Part shown: positions 9,005 to 59,513 of the stretch, piece after piece
Layout: the number at the start of each line of letters is the position of its first letter
How positions within the stretch are numbered: position 1 is the first letter of the stretch
Source of the DNA: Modestobacter marinus
GTDB taxonomy: Bacteria; Actinomycetota; Actinomycetes; Mycobacteriales; Geodermatophilaceae
Direction: 5' to 3'
Length of the DNA stretch: 64,000 nt
NCBI RefSeq assembly: GCF_011758655.1
Contig: NZ_JAAMPA010000002.1
Location: 806,001-870,000 of the forward strand
The notes under the pieces: generated by a model
What the model was told of the DNA's origin: nothing
Database searches by the model: none
Seen by the model: only the letters and a program-made list of their open reading frames with translations
Made by a program: the position numbers and the translations under genes

Positions 9005-9429
9005 CAGGCGGCCCGCCGGGCGCCGCGGCGAGCCCGCCGCTCGGCCTTGTCCCGGGCGGCGGCGTCAGCGACGGCCTGCCCCTCGCGCTTCTTGCGGGCC
9101 GCGCTGCGCACGCCGTAGCTGAAGGCGGCGACCTTGATCAGCGGGCTGCCCAGGGTGGCGGCGAACACGCTGGTCAGCGCGGCGACGTTGCTGGAGACGT
9201 TCGCGGCGTTGCCGGTGATGTCGTCGACCCGCTCGAGGTTGGCGTTGACGTGGGTGACCGTCGTGGACGCCTGGCTCAGGATCGGCTGGCTCTGCTCCCG
9301 GACCTGGCGGATGGTCAGCGTCGTCTCGTCCAGGGTGCGCCCGAGCTTGAGCAGCGGCACCGCCACCAGGACCACCAGCAGCACCAAGGCACCGGCTGCG
9401 ATCAGCCCGGCCCACTCTCCTGCAGACAC
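9004..9429 (-). CDS. DUF948 membrane protein
   Basis: A 141-residue protein with one membrane helix near the N terminus (residues about 7-27). An extended helical region (LDETTLTIRQVREQSQPIL, then asparagine-rich VTHVNANLERVDDITGNAAN) resembles methyl-accepting-protein-like coiled coils. The tail is basic. The start is placed at the GTG giving VSAGEWAGLIAAG, which is preceded by an AGGGGA ribosome-binding site; the longer frame has an implausible Arg-rich start. Function is unknown, but the family is conserved upstream of alaS in actinobacteria. Confidence 0.8.
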   Translation of the reverse strand: MSAGEWAGLIAAGALVLLVVLVAVPLLKLGRTLDETTLTIRQVREQSQPILSQASTTVTHVNANLERVDDITGNAANVSSNVAALTSVFAATLGSPLIKVAAFSYGVRSAARKKREGQAVADAAARDKAERRARRGARRAA

Positions 9430-9545
9430 TCGAGGGTCCCCTTCGTCTTCTCGTGCACGTCGCCGGTGACGGCCCACCGGTCGGGCAACCCTAACCGCCG
9501 GCACCGACAGCGAGCGCTGACGTTCGGGACGGCGACCGCCCGGGC

Positions 9546-10880
9546 TCAGCCGCGGCGGCGGACGATCGCCCGGAGCTTGGCCAGCCGGGCCCCGATCTGG
9601 GCCTCCACCCCGCGCCCGGTGGGCCGGTAGTAGTCCCTGCCCACCAGCGCGTCGGGCGGGTACTGCTGCGGGACGACGCCGTCGGGGTGGGCGTGCGGGT
9701 AGACGTAGGTCTTCCCGTGCCCGAGCTTCTTCGCCCCGGCGTAGTGCGCGTCGCGCAGCCCCGGTGGCACCGGCCCGGCCAGCCCGGCGCGCACGTCGGC
9801 GACCGACTCCCCCATGGCGGTGGTGATCGCGTTGGACTTCGGGGCGGTGGCCAGGTGGACGACGGCGTGCGCCAGCGGGAAGTGCCCTTCGGGCATGCCG
9901 ATGAAGGCGACCGCGTCGGCGGCGGCGACCGCGGTGAGCAGCGCGGTCGGGTCGGCCATGCCGATGTCCTCGCTCGCCGAGATCACCAGCCGGCGGGCGA
10001 TGAAGCGCGGGTCCTCCCCCGCCTCCACCATCCGGGCCAGGTAGTGCAGCGCGGCGTCGACGTCGCTGCCCCGGATGCTCTTGATCAGCGCGCTGGCGAT
10101 GTCGTAGTGCTGGTCACCGGAGCGGTCGTAGCGCACCGCGGCCTGCGCGACCGCCGTCTCCAGGGTGGCGAGGTCCAGGACGTCGGAGCCGGCCGCCCGG
10201 GCCGCCCCGGCGCCGCTCTCCAGCGCGGTCAGCGCCTTGCGCGCGTCGCCGCCGGCCACCCGCAGCAGGTGCTCCTCGGCCTCCGCGGTCAGCGTCACCG
10301 CGCCGTCCAGGCCGCGTTCGCTGGTCAGCGCCCGACGCAGCACGGTGCGCACGTCCTCGTCGTCCAGTGACTGCAACGCGAGCACCAGGCTGCGGGACAG
10401 CAGCGGGCTGACCACGGAGAAGAACGGGTTCTCGGTGGTGGCGGCGATCAGGCTGACGATCCGGTCCTCGACCGCGGAGAGCAGCGAGTCCTGCTGGGTC
10501 TTGGAGAAGCGGTGCACCTCGTCGATGAACAGCACGGTGCGCCGGCCGGCGTGGGTCAGCTCCCGCTTGGCGTTCGCGATGACGGCACGGACCTCCTTGA
10601 CCCCGGAGTCCAGTGCCGACAGCTGCACGAAGGAGCGCTGGGTGGCCAGCGAGATGACGTGCGCCAGCGTCGTCTTGCCGGTGCCGGGCGGGCCGTAGAG
10701 CACCAGGGACATCGGCTCGTCGGCCTCCACGAGCCGGCGCAACGGAGCCCGCGCGCCGAGCAGGTGCTGCTGGCCGACCACCTCGTCCAGGGACTGCGGC
10801 CGCATCCGGACCGCCAGCGGCGCACCCGGGTCGACCGGCGGCGGGCCGTCCTCCGGAGCCGGGTCGAACAGCGACGTCAC
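9546..10880 (-). CDS. rarA: Replication-associated recombination AAA ATPase RarA (MgsA)
   Basis: Clamp-loader-like AAA+ ATPase that acts at stalled replication forks. The protein shows Walker A GPPGTGKT and Walker [10 protein letters not shown], sensor residues in [11 protein letters not shown], and the C-terminal MgsA tetramerisation region. The GTG start gives [12 protein letters not shown] and 444 residues; longer in-frame starts give no family match. A TAGCGT box (10888-10893) ends seven bases before the GTG, suggesting a leaderless transcript. It is divergent from the aldo/keto reductase gene, with a 34-bp gap. Confidence 0.95.
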
Positions 10881-10914: not shown

Positions 10915-11772
10915 ATGCAGAAGCGACGCATCGGCAACCGGACGGTCAGCGCGGTGGGGCTGGGGGCGATGCCCCTGTCCACCAAGGACCCCCGCCCCTC
11001 GCCGGAGGAGGCCGAGGCCGTGGTGCACGCCGCGCTGGACGCCGGCGTGACCGTGATCGACACCGCCGACGCCTATTCACGGGACGAGGCGGAGTTCGGC
11101 CACAACGAGGAGCTGGTCGCCCGCGCGCTGGCCTCCTACGGCTCCGCGGGCGACGTGCTGGTCGCGACCAAGGGCGGCCACACCCGGCGCGGCGCGGAGT
11201 GGGAGCTGGACGGGTCACCGGCGTACCTGCGCCGGGCCTGCGAGGCCTCCCTGCGCCGGCTGGGCGTCGAGGCGATCGGGCTCTACCAGTTCCACCGACC
11301 CGACCCGGTGACGCCGTGGGAGGAGTCGATGGGGGCGCTCCGCGAGCTCGTGGACGACGGCCTGGTGCAGCTGGCCGGCATCTCCAACGCCGACGTCGGC
11401 CAGATCGACGCGGCCCGGGCGATCGTCGGCGACGCGCTGGTCAGCGTGCAGAACCAGTTCTCCCCCGGCTGGCGGTCCTCGGCCGGCGAGCTGGCGCACT
11501 GCGCGCAGCACGGGCTGGCGTTCCTGCCGTGGAGCCCGTTCGGCGGGGTCTCGGCCGCCAAGGAGCTGGGCTCCACGGCCGCAGAGTTCGCCGCCGTCGC
11601 CGACGAGCTGGGCGTCTCGGTGTACCAGGTGACGCTGGCCTGGCACCTGGCCCAGGCCGACGTCGTCGTGCCCATCCCCGGCGCCTCCCGTGCCGAGTCG
11701 ATCACCGACTCCGCCGCAGCCGCCGACCTCCAGCTGACCGACGACCAGCTCTCCCGCCTCAACGCCGCCTGA
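10915..11772 (+). CDS. Aldo/keto reductase
   Basis: NAD(P)H-dependent oxidoreductase of the AKR superfamily; the physiological substrate cannot be told. The catalytic tetrad is visible: Asp and Tyr in [12 protein letters not shown], Lys in VATKGGH and His in LYQFHRPDP. The C-terminal IPGAS segment marks the NADP-binding region. At 285 residues it is slightly shorter than average but complete. ATG start. A short hairpin terminator follows the stop. A second, only distantly similar AKR gene lies at 14759-15784. Confidence 0.9.
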
Positions 11773-11777
11773 CCCTC

Positions 11778-11800
11778 ACCCTCATGTTCACCCTGAGGGT
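11778..11800 (+). terminator. Hairpin after aldo/keto reductase
   Basis: Seven-base perfect stem ACCCTCA/TGAGGGT with a nine-base loop, six bases after the stop codon. No T-run follows, as is common in this kind of genome. Confidence 0.55.
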
Positions 11801-11817
11801 GCGCCACCCGCCCGGTG

Positions 11818-11885
11818 GTGAGTGCGCAGTAGTGGTCGTCGACACGGCGGGACACGCCGCGCTGGGCGACGACAACTGCTCACTC
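11818..11885. repeat. 68-bp palindromic repeat, copy 1
   Basis: Matches the element at 12852-12919 in 63 of 68 positions without gaps. The outer arms are a near-perfect inverted repeat of about 21 bases beginning GAGTGNGCAGTNGTGGTCG. The centre holds a smaller stem, CGGCG-GGACA-CGCCG. It lies between the terminator of the aldo/keto reductase and the AbiEi/DUF559-like gene. The paired arrangement is discussed under findings. Confidence 0.9.
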
Positions 11886-11979
11886 GCCGCCGGGAGCCGG
11901 GTTCTCCACAGCCTCCTGAGTCCTCCACAGATCGCGCTCGGCTCTCGGGTGGCCGTCATGTCCGGCCGAGCCTGGCGGC

Positions 11980-12855
11980 ATGACCACGGGGCTGCCGCCG
12001 ATCTACACCCGCCAGGACGCCGATGCAGCAGGGCTGACCCGGGCGGAGCTGCGGGACGACGGCGTCCGGGTCAGCCGCGGGGCGTACGTCTCCCGGTCCC
12101 TACCGCTGACCGTGCACGCGCGGTGCCGGTCACTCGTCGCCGTCCTGCCCGCCGGCGCGGCGTTCAGCCACGCCACGGCAGCCGGGCTCCTCGGCGCACC
12201 GGTACGCGACGCCCGCCCGATCCACGTCGTGGTGGCGCCTGGCAGCCCACGCCCCCGGCGCCGCGGGCTGCAGGTGCACGTCCGTGACCTGACGGCAGCC
12301 GACCGGGTCGCCCATCGCGGGCTGCCGCTGACCAGTGGCGCCCAGAGCTGGCTCGACCTCGCCGCCGACACCGCGCCGGACGAGCTCGTGGCCATCGGGG
12401 ACGCCCTCTGCCGGGCCGGGCATCTCAGCACGGCGCGGCTGGCAGAGCGTCTCGCGCAGGCAGGACGCACGCGCGGCGTCGTGCGCGCCCGGCACTGCGC
12501 TCCGCTGCTGACGCCGCTGGCCGCCTCCCGCCCGGAGAGCCTGATCCGGTACTGGCTGCTGGACAGCGACCTGCCGGCACCCGAGGTGCAGGTGCCGGTG
12601 TTCGACCACCGGGGCGTCGCGGTCGTGCACGGCGACCTCGGTTACAGCCGCTGGAAGATCGCGATCGAGTACGAGGGCCGTCAGCACGCCGAGTGGCGGC
12701 AGTTCGGTCGGGACGTCGACCGTTACTCGTTCATGGCCAGCCGTGGCTGGCTGGTGCTGCGCTTCGGCGCCGTCCACCTGGATCGCCGCGCGACCGTGCT
12801 CGACCGCGTCGGCGCCGCCCTGCTCAGCCGGGGCGCCCTGCCGGGCCGAGCGTGA
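11980..12855 (+). CDS. AbiEi-like / DUF559-like (Vsr-type nuclease fold) protein
   Basis: A 291-residue protein of a type that occurs in many copies in actinobacterial genomes. The N terminus (RQDADAAGLTRAELRDDG, then RVSRGAYVS) resembles the winged-helix domain of AbiEi antitoxin-like proteins. The C terminus resembles a DUF559/restriction-endonuclease-like fold: Glu186 in SRPESLIRYWL, Asp219 in HGDLG, and Glu230/Glu232 in KIAIEYEGRQH, then RDVDRYSFMASRGWLVLRFG. These could form a PD-(D/E)xK-like metal site, but activity is not established. ATG start. It is framed by two 68-bp palindromes, the second overlapping its last codon. Upstream DNA has two CTCCACAG words 20 bases apart. Confidence 0.75.
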   Translation: MTTGLPPIYTRQDADAAGLTRAELRDDGVRVSRGAYVSRSLPLTVHARCRSLVAVLPAGAAFSHATAAGLLGAPVRDARPIHVVVAPGSPRPRRRGLQVHVRDLTAADRVAHRGLPLTSGAQSWLDLAADTAPDELVAIGDALCRAGHLSTARLAERLAQAGRTRGVVRARHCAPLLTPLAASRPESLIRYWLLDSDLPAPEVQVPVFDHRGVAVVHGDLGYSRWKIAIEYEGRQHAEWRQFGRDVDRYSFMASRGWLVLRFGAVHLDRRATVLDRVGAALLSRGALPGRA

Positions 12856-52085: not shown

Positions 52086-53453
52086 GTGACGCACGCGCCC
52101 CACCGTGCCGCGAGGTACGGGGAACGCAGCTCCACCCGGGAGGACCGGTCCGCATCCCGGCGGAGCGAGCGCCGGCGGCGCCGCACCCACCGCCCCCTGG
52201 TGCTGGCCCTGCTCATCGCCGCCTTCGGGATGGCCTTCGCGACCCTCGTGCCCGGCATCGCCTCCGCGGCGGAGGCCGGCGAGCAGGTCCGCGGCACGCT
52301 GCAGACCAGCCTGAGCGGCCCGATCGAAGGGGTCACCGTCGAGGTGGCCACGCCCGACGGCGACACCGTGGACACCGTCCAGACCGACGAGGACGGCCGG
52401 TGGGAGGTCGACCTGCCCGGCCCCGGCCAGTACGTCGTCAGCGTCGACCCCGACGACCTGCCAGAGGGTGTGGTGGTCAACGGCGAGCCCAGCCGCACCG
52501 TCACCGTCGACGCGGGGCGGGCGCAGCCGGTCAACATCGGCCTCAACGACGGCAGCCGCAACGACGGGGGCGGCACCATCCGGGCCGTCCAGCTGTTCGT
52601 CGACGGCCTGCGCTTCGGGCTCCTGATCGCCATGGCGGCGGTCGGCCTGTCGCTCATCTACGGCACCACCGGGCTGACCAACTTCGCCCACGGTGAGCTG
52701 GTCACCATCGGCGCCATCGCCGCCTGGTACATCAACGTGCAGGGCGGGGTCCCGCTCATCCCGGCCGCCTTGCTGGCCATGGTGGTCGGCGGCGTCATCG
52801 GTGCCCTCAACGAGCTGGCCATCTGGCGGCCGCTGCGGCGCCGCGGCACCGGGCTCATCGCGGCGCTCGTCGTCTCGATCGGGCTCTCCCTGGCGCTGCG
52901 CTACAGCTACCAGATCTTCTACGGCGGGTTCTCCAACCCCTACGCCGACTACCAGGGTCAGCGGGCCAGGAGCTACGGCCTGTTCACCCTGCAGGACCGG
53001 GACATCGCCTCGATCGTCATCGCGGTCGTCGTGCTGGTCCTGGTGGCGCTCATGCTGCAGCGCACCAAGATCGGCAAGGCCATGCGCGCGGTGTCGGACA
53101 ACCGGGACCTGGCGGCGTCCTCCGGGATCGACGTCAACCGGGTCGTCCTCTTCGTGTGGGTGCTCGGCGGTGCGCTCGCCGCGCTCGGCGGGGTGCTCCT
53201 CGGTCTCTCCGACCAGGTCCAGTGGGACATGGGCTTCCGGCTGCTGCTGCTGATGTTCGCCGGGGTCACCCTCGGTGGGCTCGGGACCGCCTACGGCGCC
53301 CTGCTCGGCAGCCTGATCGTCGGCGTCTTCGTGCAGATGTCCACCCTCGTCATCCCGAATGACATGAAGTACGTCGGAGGGCTGCTCCTCTTGATCGTCA
53401 TCCTCGTCGTCCGTCCCCAGGGCATCCTGGGCAGCCGCGCCAGGATCGGCTGA
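52086..53453 (+). CDS. livH: Branched-chain amino acid ABC permease LivH fused to an N-terminal beta-sandwich domain
   Basis: Inner-membrane permease of a Liv-type importer, 455 residues. A basic N terminus and signal-like helix (about 36-62, ending GIASAAEA) precede an external domain (66-153) resembling a carboxypeptidase-regulatory/Ig-like fold (GTLQTSLSGPIEGVTVEVAT, TDEDGRWEVDLPGPGQYVVS). The LivH core follows from about 165 (IYGTTGLTNFAHGELVTIGA, GVTLGGLGTAYGALLGSLIV). GTG start with GGGAGG upstream. First gene of livHMGF. Confidence 0.9.
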   Translation: MTHAPHRAARYGERSSTREDRSASRRSERRRRRTHRPLVLALLIAAFGMAFATLVPGIASAAEAGEQVRGTLQTSLSGPIEGVTVEVATPDGDTVDTVQTDEDGRWEVDLPGPGQYVVSVDPDDLPEGVVVNGEPSRTVTVDAGRAQPVNIGLNDGSRNDGGGTIRAVQLFVDGLRFGLLIAMAAVGLSLIYGTTGLTNFAHGELVTIGAIAAWYINVQGGVPLIPAALLAMVVGGVIGALNELAIWRPLRRRGTGLIAALVVSIGLSLALRYSYQIFYGGFSNPYADYQGQRARSYGLFTLQDRDIASIVIAVVVLVLVALMLQRTKIGKAMRAVSDNRDLAASSGIDVNRVVLFVWVLGGALAALGGVLLGLSDQVQWDMGFRLLLLMFAGVTLGGLGTAYGALLGSLIVGVFVQMSTLVIPNDMKYVGGLLLLIVILVVRPQGILGSRARIG

Positions 53454-53456
53454 CCG

Positions 53457-54455
53457 ATGGCCGACCTCCTCAACGCGTTCGCGATCGCGGGCAAGGCGTT
53501 CTTCGGGTTCCAGGCGATCTTCTTCGCCCTGCTCGCCATCGGCATCAACGTGCACTTCGGGTACACGGGCCTGCTCAACTTCGGCCAGATCGCCTTCGCC
53601 ATGCTCGGCGGCTTCGGCATCGCCATCTCGGTGAGCCAGTGGGGGCTGCCCTTCTGGGTCGGGGTGCTCGTCGGGGTCCTCGCCGCCGTCGTGCTCGCCC
53701 TCCTGCTGGGCCTGCCCACGCTGCGCCTGCGGGCCGACTACCTCGCCATCGTCACCATCGCCACCGCCGAGGGGCTGAGACTGGTCTTCCGATCGGTCTC
53801 CGCCACCCCGGTCACCGGTGGCACCCGCGGGCTGTCGGCGTTCAACCGCGACTTCATCGCCCTGGCCCCCTGGGACACCGCCCGCCGGTACGACCTGCTG
53901 GGCACCACCTGGAGCGGCGGCGAACTCTGGGTCTGCACGGTCGGGTGGATCCTGGTGGCGCTGTGCTCGCTGCTGGTCTGGGCGCTCATGCGCTCCCCCT
54001 GGGGCCGGGTGGTGAAGGCCATCCGGGAGGACGAGGACGCCGTCCGCTCGCTGGGCAAGAACGTCTACGCCTACAAGATGCAGGCGCTGGTCCTCGGCGG
54101 GATCTTCGGCGCCTTCGGCGGCATGGTCTACGCCGTCGGCACCGGGTCGGCCATCCCCGACCAGTACCAGAACGCCAACACCTTCCTGGCCTACGCGGCG
54201 CTGATCCTCGGTGGCGCCGCACGGGTGCTCGGCCCGGTCATCGGGTCCATGCTGCTGCTGTTCATCCTGCAGTTCGCCGACACCGGGCTGCGCTCGCTGA
54301 TCGCCAACGGGGTCATCCCCTCGGAGCTGCTCTCCTCCACCGACGTCGCGCAGCTGCGCTACGTGCTGGTCGGGATCGGGCTCATGCTGTTGTTGGTGTT
54401 CCGGCCCCAGGGCATCTTCGGTGACCGACGAGAGGTGATGCTCGATGCCCGCTGA
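53457..54455 (+). CDS. livM: Branched-chain amino acid ABC permease LivM
   Basis: Second permease subunit, 332 residues with eight to ten membrane helices. Family segments: NVHFGYTGLLNFGQIAFAML, LRADYLAIVTIATAEGLRLV, and the EAA-like loop SPWGRVVKAIREDEDAVRSL that contacts the ATPase. Starts three bases after the livH stop; its stop overlaps livG by 11 bases. Confidence 0.95.
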   Translation: MADLLNAFAIAGKAFFGFQAIFFALLAIGINVHFGYTGLLNFGQIAFAMLGGFGIAISVSQWGLPFWVGVLVGVLAAVVLALLLGLPTLRLRADYLAIVTIATAEGLRLVFRSVSATPVTGGTRGLSAFNRDFIALAPWDTARRYDLLGTTWSGGELWVCTVGWILVALCSLLVWALMRSPWGRVVKAIREDEDAVRSLGKNVYAYKMQALVLGGIFGAFGGMVYAVGTGSAIPDQYQNANTFLAYAALILGGAARVLGPVIGSMLLLFILQFADTGLRSLIANGVIPSELLSSTDVAQLRYVLVGIGLMLLLVFRPQGIFGDRREVMLDAR

Positions 54456-55482
54456 CCCCGCTCCCCACGGCGCGCACGCCGCACGGCCCGACGGGACCCC
54501 CGGCACGACGCCGCTGGCCGGCGCCACCCGCGCCGAGCCCCGGCGGGAGGCCCAGGCCGCCCTCCGCGACGTCCCCTGGGAGGTCGGCGTCGCCAAGCCC
54601 GACCCGGCGATCGTCGTCGACCACGTCACCCGCACCTTCGGTGGGCTCACCGCGGTGTCCGTCGACCACCTGGAGATCCAGCGCGGTGGCATCACCGGGC
54701 TGATCGGGCCCAACGGTGCGGGCAAGACGACGCTGTTCAACCTGCTCACCGGGTTCGACCAGCCCAACACCGGCACCTGGTCGTTCAACGGCCGCGAGCT
54801 GGGCAAGCTCAGCCCGCACCAGGTCGCCCGGCTCGGCGTCGTCCGCACCTTCCAGCTGACCAAGGCGCTGTCCCGGCTCACCGTGCTGCAGAACATGCTG
54901 CTCGGCGCCCAGGGGCAGTCCGGGGAGAGCTTCCTGCGGGCCCTCGTGCCGGGGACCTGGCGCGCCCAGGAGAAGGCCAACACCGAACGCGCGATGGACC
55001 TGCTCCGGCGGTTCAAGCTCGACGCCAAGAAGGACGACTTCGCCGGCAGCCTGTCCGGTGGTCAGCGCAAGCTGCTCGAGATGGCCCGAGCACTGATGAG
55101 CGAGCCGCAGGTGGTGATGCTCGACGAGCCGATGGCCGGGGTGAACCCGGCGCTGACCCAGAGCCTGCTGGGCCACGTCAAGGACCTCCGCGAGGAGGGC
55201 ATGACGGTCATCTTCGTCGAGCACGACATGGACGTCGTCCGGGACATCAGCGACTGGGTGGTCGTCATGGCCGCCGGCAAGGTCATCGCCGAAGGCGCAC
55301 CGGACTCCATCAGCCAGAACAAGGCCGTGGTCGACGCCTACCTCGGCGCGCACCACGACGCCCCCCTGACCGAGGACGAGGAAGACCGCTTCCTCGCCGA
55401 GGACCAGGCGGCCGCGCGGGCGCAGCGCGAGGACGTCATCAGCTCCGACCAGGGCCGCCGCACGAGGAGGGCAGGACGATGA
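54445..55482 (+). CDS. livG: Branched-chain amino acid ABC ATPase LivG
   Basis: ATP-binding subunit, 345 residues. Walker A IGPNGAGKTT, signature LSGGQRKLLEMA, Walker B VVMLDEPMAGVNP and H-loop FVEHDMDVV. An N-terminal extension of about 55 residues and an acidic C-terminal tail of about 40 exceed the usual 255-residue LivG. ATG inside the end of livM; its stop overlaps livF (ATGA). Confidence 0.95.
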   Translation: MPADPAPHGAHAARPDGTPGTTPLAGATRAEPRREAQAALRDVPWEVGVAKPDPAIVVDHVTRTFGGLTAVSVDHLEIQRGGITGLIGPNGAGKTTLFNLLTGFDQPNTGTWSFNGRELGKLSPHQVARLGVVRTFQLTKALSRLTVLQNMLLGAQGQSGESFLRALVPGTWRAQEKANTERAMDLLRRFKLDAKKDDFAGSLSGGQRKLLEMARALMSEPQVVMLDEPMAGVNPALTQSLLGHVKDLREEGMTVIFVEHDMDVVRDISDWVVVMAAGKVIAEGAPDSISQNKAVVDAYLGAHHDAPLTEDEEDRFLAEDQAAARAQREDVISSDQGRRTRRAGR

Positions 55483-56366
55483 CTGGCATGGACACACCGG
55501 GTCCGCCGGAGGACCGGAGGTTCTCCGTGCCGGAGTCCGAGCAGGACCGGCCGGTCGCCGACGACCCCGGCCCCGGCACCGCGGTGGCCATGTCCCCGGC
55601 GGAGAAGGCGGCCACCCGGGAGGAGCACCAGCGTCTCGCCGAGGGCGCGCTGGTGCGCGCCGACAACCTGGTGGCCGGCTACGTCCCCGGGGTCAACATC
55701 CTCAACGGCACCGACTTCTACCTCGCCGACGGCGAGCTGGTCGGCATCATCGGACCCAACGGCGCCGGCAAGTCCACGCTGCTCAAGGCGCTGTTCGGGT
55801 TGATCCCGGTGCGGTCCGGCGCGGTGACGCTGCGCGGCGAGGACATCACGTCCGCCCCGGCCCACCGGCTGGTCTCGCTCGGCGTCGGCTACGTCCCGCA
55901 GAACAACAACGTGTTCCCCTCTCTCACCATCGAGGAGAACATGCAGATGGGCGTCTACCTGCGGCCCAAGACGTTCAAGGAGCGGTTCGACTACGTCGCC
56001 GAGCTGTTCCCGCTGCTAGGCGACCGTCGCAAGGGCAAGGCCGGCGCCCTCTCCGGTGGTGAGCGGCAGATGGTGGCCATGGGCCGTGCGCTGATGATGG
56101 ACCCCTCCGTGCTGCTGCTGGACGAGCCCTCCGCGGGCCTCTCCCCGGTGCTGCAGGACGAGGTGTTCATCCGCTGCCGGCGGATCAACGCCACCGGCGT
56201 CTCGATCATCATGGTCGAGCAGAACGCCCGCCGGTGCCTGCAGATCTGCCACCGGGGCTACGTGCTCGACCAGGGCCGAAACGCCTACACCGACTCGGGC
56301 AAGTCGCTGATGAACGACCCGAAGGTGATCGAGCTCTACCTGGGGACCCTCGCCAAGGCCCAGTGA
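55479..56366 (+). CDS. livF: Branched-chain amino acid ABC ATPase LivF
   Basis: Second ATP-binding subunit, 295 residues. Walker A IGPNGAGKST, signature LSGGERQMVAMGRAL, Walker B LLLDEPSAGLSP and VEQNARR. The first about 58 residues are an acidic extension. Last gene of the transporter operon; a strong terminator follows at 56383. Confidence 0.95.
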   Translation: MTGMDTPGPPEDRRFSVPESEQDRPVADDPGPGTAVAMSPAEKAATREEHQRLAEGALVRADNLVAGYVPGVNILNGTDFYLADGELVGIIGPNGAGKSTLLKALFGLIPVRSGAVTLRGEDITSAPAHRLVSLGVGYVPQNNNVFPSLTIEENMQMGVYLRPKTFKERFDYVAELFPLLGDRRKGKAGALSGGERQMVAMGRALMMDPSVLLLDEPSAGLSPVLQDEVFIRCRRINATGVSIIMVEQNARRCLQICHRGYVLDQGRNAYTDSGKSLMNDPKVIELYLGTLAKAQ

Positions 56367-57341: not shown

Positions 57342-58667
57342 TCAGCGCTGGGGCCCGATGCCCTGGGCGTTGAGGCCCTGGATGATCCGCGAGGACTCCT
57401 CGAACCCGATGACCACGACGGCGTCGGGGTTGAAGTCGACCATCTGCTGGACCTCGGAGTCGAAGTTCGCCGCCTGCGGGTCGTAGGTGACGTACTGGAT
57501 GCTGTCCTCGGACAGACCGCCGGCGATCAGGTTGTCCCGGGTGTTCTCGGCCAGACCGGTGCCGTACGGGTCGTTGATCGCCAGGATGCCGACGGTGTTG
57601 TTGCCGTCCTCGGCGATCAGGTCGGCCAGCGCGCGGGCCTGCAGGGTGTCCGGGGGCGCGGTGCGGAAGTACAGCCCGTTGTCGTTGTACTCGGTGAACT
57701 GGTCGGAGGTGTTCGCCGGCGAGATCTGCAGGACACCGGCACCGGTGATGGTGTCGATGACCGTGAGGCTCACCCCGGACGACGCGGCACCGACGATGGC
57801 GTCGACGTTGGACTGCAGCAGCCGGTCGACCGTCTGGGTGGCGGTGTCGGTCGAGGCGTCACCGGAGTCACCCTCGACGAGCTGCACCGGCTGGCCGAGC
57901 ACGCCACCGGCCTCGTTGACCTCGTTGATCGCGAGCTGAGCGCCGGCGACCTCGGGCGGGCCGAGGAAGGCCAGGTTCCCGGTCAGCGGCAGCAGCGTGC
58001 CGATCACCAGCGGGTCGCCCGTGGCGCCCGGCGCGGCGTAGGCCGGGCCCTCGTCGGTGGCGGCGTTGGCCTCGTCGCCGGCGATGACGAAGTCAGTCGC
58101 CGCGTCGTCGAGGGCGTTGTCCTCGCCGAACTGCAGGATCCCGAAGCTGGCCTGGGCCGGCTCCCCGGCCTCGGCGAAGCTCAGCGGGCCGCTGACGCCG
58201 TCGTAGTCGACGTTGCCGCCGGCGTTGATGATCTCCACGCAGGCGGAGAAGCTGTCGCAGGTCTCGCCGCCGAAGGTGAGGCCGTTGAGGTAGGGCGCGA
58301 AGACGGTGGCGTCGCTGCTGCCGGCGGCCTGGGCCGCCAGGGCGGTCAAGATGACGGCGTCGTAGGTCTCACCCGCGTAGTTGTAGTCCTGCAGCTCCGG
58401 GTCGACCGCGAGCAGGCGGTCGGTGAAGTCGCCGGACAGCTCGGTCAGCGGCGTCGTGCCGCGCATCCCGGCCAGCGCACCCTCGTCGGAGAAGTCCTCA
58501 CCGAGGGCGTTGCCCATGTTGCCGTCGGTGCCGTAGACGTTGACCTGCTTCTCGCCGCTCGCCGCGTCGTCGGTCCCGCCGCCCTCGTCGCTGCCGCCAC
58601 AGGCGGTCAGCGCGAGGAGGGCAGCACCGGAGAGGGCGGTCGCGCGGGCGAACGTGCCTGTGCGCAT
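57342..58667 (-). CDS. Branched-chain amino acid-type substrate-binding lipoprotein, apparently circularly permuted
   Basis: Periplasmic-binding-protein lipoprotein, 441 residues, probably feeding livHMGF. Signal peptide with lipobox LTAC (Cys23). Residues 40-185 (VYGTDGN, MRGTTP, AGETYDAVILTALAA, DYDGVSGPLSF) correspond to the part that normally follows the central IGFEE...QGIGP segment. Residues 218-441 (VIGTLLPLTGNLAFLGPP, VEGDSGDAS, VGAASSGVSLTVIDT, ILAINDPYGTGLAEN) correspond to the usual N-terminal part, and the protein stops at QGIGPQR. A 32-residue Ala/Asp-rich linker joins them. ATG start, on the strand opposite to livHMGF. TAGGTT at 58747-58752 is a candidate -10. Confidence 0.85.
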   Translation of the reverse strand: MRTGTFARATALSGAALLALTACGGSDEGGGTDDAASGEKQVNVYGTDGNMGNALGEDFSDEGALAGMRGTTPLTELSGDFTDRLLAVDPELQDYNYAGETYDAVILTALAAQAAGSSDATVFAPYLNGLTFGGETCDSFSACVEIINAGGNVDYDGVSGPLSFAEAGEPAQASFGILQFGEDNALDDAATDFVIAGDEANAATDEGPAYAAPGATGDPLVIGTLLPLTGNLAFLGPPEVAGAQLAINEVNEAGGVLGQPVQLVEGDSGDASTDTATQTVDRLLQSNVDAIVGAASSGVSLTVIDTITGAGVLQISPANTSDQFTEYNDNGLYFRTAPPDTLQARALADLIAEDGNNTVGILAINDPYGTGLAENTRDNLIAGGLSEDSIQYVTYDPQAANFDSEVQQMVDFNPDAVVVIGFEESSRIIQGLNAQGIGPQR

Positions 58668-58892: not shown

Positions 58893-59513
58893 TCAGGAGC
58901 CGGCGGGAGCGGCGGGGTTGGTCTCGCCGGTCGGCTCGGAGTCGGTCTCGAGGATCGCCTGGGCCAGGGCCCTCATCGACGTGCGCTCGTTCATCGCCGT
59001 CCGCTGGATCCAGCGGAACGCCTCGGCCTCGGTCATGCCCCGCTCGGACATGAGCCGCCCCTTGGCCCGCTCGACGACCTTGCGGGCCTCCAGGCGCTCC
59101 TTGAGGTCGCTCACCTCGGCGTCCAGCGCGTGCATCTCCTGGAAGCGGCCGACCGCGACCTCGATGGCGGGCACCAGGTCGTTCTTGGAGAACGGCTTGA
59201 CCAGGTAGGCCATCGCACCGGCGTCGCGGGCGCGCTCGACGAGCTCGCGCTGGCTGAAGGCCGTCAGCACGATCACCGGCGCGATGCGCGCAGCAGCGAT
59301 CTGCTCGGCCGCGGCCAGGCCGTCGAGGACGGGCATCTGGACGTCGAGGACGACGAGGTCCGGGCGCAGCAGCTGCGCCTGCTCGACGGCGGCCTGGCCG
59401 TCGCCGACCTCGGCGACGACGACGTAGCCCTCCTCCTCCAGCATCTCCTTGAGGTCGAGGCGGATGAGGGCCTCGTCCTCAGCGATGAGGACCCGGGTCG
59501 GTGCGTTGGTCAC
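58893..59513 (-). CDS. pdtaR: ANTAR-domain response regulator
   Basis: Two-component output protein that acts on RNA, 206 residues. Receiver domain: acidic pocket IAEDE, phospho-acceptor Asp57 in VVLDVQMP, Thr in LTAFSQ, Lys in VKPFSKN. The C-terminal ANTAR domain, LEARKVVERAKGRLMSERG followed by EAEAFRWIQRTAMNERTSM, binds tandem hairpins in target RNAs. It matches mycobacterial PdtaR in position near pyk and tesB. The GTG start is six bases after TAGGAT (59520-59525), so it is probably leaderless. No histidine kinase is adjacent. Confidence 0.93.
   Translation of the reverse strand: MTNAPTRVLIAEDEALIRLDLKEMLEEEGYVVVAEVGDGQAAVEQAQLLRPDLVVLDVQMPVLDGLAAAEQIAAARIAPVIVLTAFSQRELVERARDAGAMAYLVKPFSKNDLVPAIEVAVGRFQEMHALDAEVSDLKERLEARKVVERAKGRLMSERGMTEAEAFRWIQRTAMNERTSMRALAQAILETDSEPTGETNPAAPAGS

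Follow-up and report, generated by a model that had tools for sequence, protein, structure and literature searches.

Natural circular permutations have usually been reconstructed as single old events, by comparison of distant proteins. Published examples include swaposin, DNA methyltransferases and transhydrogenases, and the accessible part of a review of such cases gives duplication with trimming, or fission with fusion, as the proposed mechanisms (PMC3320104). Among the matches listed in our literature search, the only natural permuted binding protein was Tp0684 (MglB-2), a lipoprotein of Treponema pallidum and its relatives that was described in 2016 and is referred to as 'Type Ic' or 'Cluster Bc' (PMC4990184). 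According to the available part of that report, Tp0684 belongs to the glucose-binding MglB family and its cut has carried the first three strands of the N lobe to the C-terminus, with the order of the C lobe unaffected; the permuted part has diverged so far, with 13% identity across the last 100 residues, that another gene of origin was considered, and no recurrence is described (PMC4990184).

The protein reported here, from Modestobacter marinus, is likewise a two-lobed binding lipoprotein of type I (Cluster B) that has been circularly permuted in nature. In contrast to Tp0684, as far as the latter is documented in the part of the report available to us, it belongs to the Liv/Peripla_BP_6 family, its cut is predicted to lie inside lobe II, and both of its halves match a canonical orthologue found in the same genomic slot (PMC4990184). 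It shares with the canonical Liv/HAAT binding proteins (PF13458; 4gnr, 4n0q, 3ipc, 1z15) the family, the predicted fold, the export signal and the livHMGF neighbours, and differs from them in the order of its halves. The swaposin, methyltransferase and transhydrogenase cases are alike in the kind of rearrangement and in the mechanisms proposed, but, judging from the accessible part of the review, they concern unrelated families, whereas in the Liv case both orders occur among homologues of a single genus (PMC3320104). The remaining literature matches listed, mostly openly accessible, gave no report of a permutation in the Liv family or of recurrence in binding proteins. The statement in a preliminary description of this locus that no such protein had been described therefore holds for the Liv family in the literature searched, but not for binding proteins of other families, Tp0684 having been published in 2016. 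What is surprising is the recurrence; a permuted binding protein as such was already known.

The gene lies in a stretch of 64,000 nucleotides (hereafter the window), at positions 57342..58667 of the minus strand, and is an intact open reading frame of 441 codons plus stop with an ATG start, preceded at 7 nt by a GGGAG stretch. Read from the sequence, residues 1-23 (58599..58667, minus) form a putative signal peptide with a lipobox-like LTAC at 20-23, ending in Cys23, which at least 90% of the 22 permuted proteins compared have retained. A post-lipobox spacer (residues 24-40; 58548..58598, minus), of low confidence in the structure model, leads into segment B (residues 41-196; 58080..58547, minus), which begins with VNVYGTDGN and corresponds to the canonical second half, now N-terminal. 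A new linker (residues 197-217; 58017..58079, minus) then connects the two former ends of the chain, C-terminus to N-terminus, and is followed by segment A (residues 218-441; 57345..58016, minus), the canonical first half, now C-terminal, which finishes with QGIGPQR. The Ala/Asp-rich linker of the preliminary description is present, but the 32 residues given there include a predicted strand at 192-196, and the linker proper is shorter, at about 21-25 residues: it spans 197-217, or 193-217 when the ends of the matches are taken as its limits.

The swapped order is evident from the alignment of the two halves taken separately, each of which falls where the preliminary description had placed it. 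Residues 35-188 match residues 307-459 of L101, a canonical homologue from a genome of the same taxonomic order (G056), with 46% identity (E = 5e-39), and residues 194-441 match residues 60-313 of the same protein with 57% identity, so that the two pieces adjoin in L101. Identities of the two halves to another canonical protein, L183, are 68% and 51%. The collinear order of canonical Liv/HAAT binding proteins is thus not found here, the halves being swapped, while other features of that family are present, namely the second half itself, a putative lipobox and linkage to livHMGF. The PF13458 (Peripla_BP_6) profile matches residues 220-439 (E = 1.3e-37; 130.7 bits against a curated cut-off of 31.7) over its positions 2-217 of 343 only, and a Pfam profile search gave no match for the N-terminal half. 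Four canonical proteins (L183, L191, L101 and L088) follow the same profile from position 2 to 312-328, whereas four permuted proteins of the class to which ours belongs (class 1, see below) match it from 1-3 to 215-217, at their C-terminal end, and two of class 2 from 2 to 226 and to 236. Both halves were found in 207 unique relatives, 102 swapped and 105 canonical. The halves are separated by a median of 2 residues in canonical proteins (range -2 to 8; n = 103 of the 105, two being removed by a coverage filter) and by a linker with a median of 27 residues between matches in swapped ones.

The predicted fold follows the permuted order as well. The AF2 model of the protein (pLDDT 78.1, pTM 0.78) is matched by Foldseek over only about half of its length. 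In a separate structural comparison with VIA, 49 of the 50 solved entries listed align with the C-terminal half of the model only, from residues 211-220 to 439-441, and the alignment of the remaining one starts at model residue 114. The leading solved entries are matched by the first part of their chain (residues 1-220 of 348 in 3ipc), the last aligned residue lying further along in four of the entries (8z0g, 9jti, 8wch and 3h5l). The order of elements in a model of canonical L088, itself modest (pLDDT 65.8), becomes that of P0001 when rotated at one point (26 elements, compared by eye). In the models, the protein would therefore have a circularly permuted type I binding fold, whose new termini fall at a helix (424-434) and a strand (43-46), neighbours along the chain of the canonical model. 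We take this region to belong to lobe II, following the lobe boundaries of solved LIV-binding proteins. The cut would thus fall near residue 220 of 3ipc, in a helix-strand loop inside lobe II, and the models do not support the inter-lobe hinge that had been suggested for it. A cut of the Tp0684 type, behind strand three of the N lobe and sparing the order of the C lobe, is not found. A fourth cross-over between the lobes, as in Tp0684, would presumably be expected if the old C-terminus belongs to lobe II and the old N-terminus to lobe I.

The permuted order is conserved in the family of the window organism (f1), which shared contigs with named records such as Modestobacter caceresii suggest to be Geodermatophilaceae. 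In a sample of 397 genomes of its taxonomic order, 75 of them from f1 including its own, the gene was found in 67 f1 genomes (match at E = 1e-25), and in each of the 67 a match follows the permuted query collinearly, starting at residue 1 or 2 and reaching 439-441. An orthologue was missing from the other eight f1 genomes (G139, G165, G210, G218, G240, G357, G371 and G396), and a rescoring of all candidates in these plus G002 and G027 gave weak matches in six of the ten, with at most 36% identity. In a smaller f1 set, 33 of 35 genomes had the gene, always permuted, and the two that lacked it were about 80% complete. Named Modestobacter, Blastococcus, Geodermatophilus and Klenkia genomes of a public collection also carry the permuted order. 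The preliminary description had named collinearity with ordinary binding proteins and an assembly error, or two fused gene fragments, as what might undo its proposal, and neither was seen. Since the swapped order is present in every gene-bearing f1 genome sampled and in the named independent assemblies, chance and an assembly error are ruled out, and we give the latter explanation practically no weight; moreover, the flanks are intact and dN is lower than dS in all seven comparisons made (dN 0.007-0.137, dS 0.10-0.44). The circular permutation of this lipoprotein is real.

Further copies occur within f1. Four genomes of genus g4 (G025, G106, G152 and G284) have a second permuted copy with 66-70% identity, one of which (L106:7990-9558) has no liv match nearby. 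Three genomes of the window's own genus (L102, L103 and L104) have a canonical paralogue, 44-46% identical in segment A, accompanied by liv genes of its own that lie on a single strand. In two other phyla, the profile A2 matched 54 of 249 genomes (56 matches; phylum of G1219) and 27 of 249 genomes (30 matches; phylum of G1220) at E = 1e-30. All of these 86 matches start at model position 200 or later and so fail to span the linker, but absence of the permuted order elsewhere is not implied, since A2 was built from 22 class 1 proteins and is therefore biased towards them, and the E cut was strict. A plasmid search matched three records at 1e-20, and the two with both halves were two joined pieces.

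The locus also conforms to its canonical counterparts. On the plus strand of the window lie genes for a livH-like permease with an N-terminal CarboxypepD_reg domain (52086..53453), a livM-like permease (53457..54455), a livG-like ATPase (54445..55482) and a livF-like ATPase (55479..56366), the last convergent with the binding-protein gene; upstream of the latter, on the same minus strand, is a response regulator with an ANTAR domain (58893..59513). The livHMGF and ANTAR neighbourhood proposed beforehand is therefore supported, both by locus annotation and by comparison. A common slot hosts both orders: pyruvate kinase, ANTAR regulator, binding protein, convergent livF, livG, livM and livH, thioesterase and polA, some of which may be missing from individual loci. 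Canonical proteins occupy it in L183, L184, L187, L191, L194, L197, L198 and L202, from other Actinomycetota, and permuted ones in the f1 loci, L203, L205 and L206, as well as in L204 and L222, where no ANTAR match was found. The slot is shared by most, not all, of the permuted groups. Class 2 loci have fewer neighbours in common with the other groups: L208-L211 retain convergent livFGMH with no outer markers adjoining, and in L207 the liv genes lie on the opposite side of the binding-protein gene. In family f16, none of nine loci has a liv match within about 9 kb of the permuted gene (e.g. L105:8804-10156), and in L105 genes for a 3-hydroxyacyl-CoA dehydrogenase (3HCDH) and a Glu/Leu/Phe/Val (ELFV) dehydrogenase lie near it. 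The CarboxypepD_reg domain of the window's LivH (PF13620, residues 66-152) is an extension that recurs in many loci, whichever order the binding protein has; it might serve extracytoplasmic docking or act as a cell-wall element.

Five groups of permuted forms can be told apart, and between them they use two cut points that lie close together. Class 1 comprises 96 of the 102 permuted proteins, mostly near-relatives from f1; its chains end with ..GIGP or an equivalent and begin with a VYGTDGN-type strand. The six class 2 proteins end about 20 residues beyond the class 1 end, after ..VYGCDGNMGNGLGKAF.. or similar, and start with LEGMKGT or similar. Class 1 was found in 67 genomes of f1, 67 of f16, four of f39, two of f49 and one of f13 (G084), and in five of 118 genomes of genus g125 in family f41 (68 with a match). 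A further 25 g125 loci are all canonical, which places both orders within one genus. Class 2 was found in three genomes of f81, one of f122 and two of genus g290, the only permuted ones among 35 genomes of family f68 (23 with a match). Other genomes of f16 (g46 and g62; n = 3) and of f49 (n = 5) are canonical.

Such recurrence in several lineages goes beyond what had been suspected from the window. Phylogenies were built on proteins all re-ordered to the canonical order, identical cores being counted once. The 68-row tree requires five changes of order (5-95% bootstrap range 5-5), four of them forced by the starred branches; it leaves out nine long-branch or distant loci (L102-L104, L176, L177 and L179-L182) and sixteen others, mostly near-copies. 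A quick tree, without most f1 near-copies and without L090 and L091, likewise requires five changes. The 92-row tree, which takes its earlier loci from the 68-row tree, holds f1 to nine rows and f16 to six, and leaves out 26 loci selected by hand, among them L241, L243, L247 and L249 but otherwise mostly near-copies, requires five changes (range 5-6, four starred), or six when the cut classes are distinguished; G084 and G540 are present in the 68-row tree and absent from this one. Here, the permuted g125 proteins are nested in a supported set (100/99) of 15 f41 rows, 11 of them canonical. Trees of single halves give six and seven changes, three of them forced. The f16 proteins sit on a long branch (0.9-1.0), which is joined to f1 only weakly (92/45 in the 68-row tree; open in the 92-row tree). 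These counts would also fit one return to the canonical order in f8, which is unlikely. A tree of LivG, LivM, LivF and LivH from 34 loci, containing no letter of the binding protein and no f16, gives five changes (four forced) and recovers the same groups as the binding-protein trees, with L206 placed in a poorly resolved fork away from the canonical f41 locus L191. The order has therefore most likely changed in place, the operon being inherited alongside.

We ran AU tests in which groups were defined by order and the unions to be tested were picked after the trees had been seen. A single clade of all permuted proteins was rejected (p = 1.5e-6, dlnL = 199), as were class 1 as one clade (p = 1.4e-4), g125 with f39/f49 (p = 0.003), f1+f16 with f39/f49 (p = 4.3e-6) and f1+f16 with g125 (p = 3.9e-8). 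Two unions were not rejected, one of both class 2 groups (p = 0.289) and the other of f1, f16 and class 2 (p = 0.0546), and the firm minimum is therefore three origins. Permuted proteins are thus polyphyletic in Actinomycetota, with at least three independent permutations and likely five. It is quite improbable that a single ancient permutation was followed by horizontal transfer, or by persistence of the permuted form beside canonical paralogues with differential loss. The shared loop and similar linker length across class 1 would agree with such a history, as would the clustered rather than scattered distribution of the order label in the trees and the lack of a firm rejection for class 2 with f1 and f16; yet the data reject the all-permuted clade, the class 1 clade and any union of two among the three class 1 groups, the livGMFH tree yields the same five groups, and two different cut points are in use.

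Taken together, we are confident in reading the protein as the binding lipoprotein of a LivHMGF importer, permuted in place, with at least three and probably about five origins, each case found using one of two neighbouring loops. It would serve the adjoining LivHMGF-type ABC importer. Its signal peptide and lipid anchor would run directly into the lobe II strand VNVYG, which canonically lies at about residue 220 of about 350; the linker of about 21-25 residues would bridge the two original termini, and the protein would now end at the lobe II helix that formerly preceded this strand. It would fold to the same two-lobed Venus flytrap, with its ligand pocket kept, and dock to LivHM as usual, the lipid tether probably being on lobe II rather than lobe I. 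The two-lobed fold perhaps tolerates the rearrangement because its new ends lie in a loop and its former ends are spanned by a linker of about 25 residues. The DGN motif is retained: Asp48 (58524..58526, minus) is invariant in the 22 permuted proteins aligned, and the equivalent residue of canonical L183 aligns with D226 of the solved 3ipc. We take this acid to have a role in ligand binding; a literature search for Atu2422 with Asp226 retrieved nothing.

A departure from transport, with the permuted protein acting as a sensor or decoy, appears improbable. The f16 genes, with their long branch, lack of liv matches and dehydrogenase neighbours, fit such a role, and so do the second copies of g4, L106 among them. 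On the other hand, the gene occupies the canonical slot beside livFGMH in f1, f39, f49 and g125 of f41, it adjoins a convergent livFGMH in f81 and f122, the tree of the neighbouring genes gives the same groups, and the DGN motif is kept, all of which speak for a binding protein that still serves its importer.

Tandem gene duplication, in-frame fusion and trimming would be the most likely origin of the permutation, and the suggestion of the preliminary description to this effect is plausible, although no intermediate with duplicated termini was found among the 102 permuted proteins (one motif match in the search for duplicated ends was due to chance, in a low-complexity spacer). That absence would suit a gene fission with the halves re-fused the other way round, or the move of a segment. 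These alternatives are nevertheless rather unlikely in our view, since the linker of the g125 proteins reads as the canonical C-terminal tail (..YITGQI or similar), filler and the post-lipobox spacer (..GDGxxTVGTLLP), which suggests that two copies were fused head to tail and then trimmed at each end, and since two tandem canonical binding-protein genes (9012-10367 and 11435-12745) are present beside the liv operon in L192, possibly a precursor state for permutation.

A further and more tentative proposal, to which we give somewhat less than even weight, is that, in Actinomycetota, circular permutation has a hot spot in the liv binding protein, with at least five independent in-situ events at two neighbouring lobe II loops, one of these events within a genus, kept by selection. 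Permutations would have been selected because the tether moves from lobe I to lobe II, altering how the protein is presented to the permease. Tethering is likewise raised as a possible explanation by the authors of the Tp0684 study, in the part of the report available to us (PMC4990184).

These results bear on how such proteins are recognised and used, since profiles that depend on order see only half of a permuted protein of this kind, and the two loops are permutation sites already tried in nature that may serve biosensor design. For the family itself, related genera carry either canonical or permuted orthologues in one and the same gene slot, the event has been repeated several times, and two cut points are in use; a rare rearrangement of a protein can thus be tested directly.
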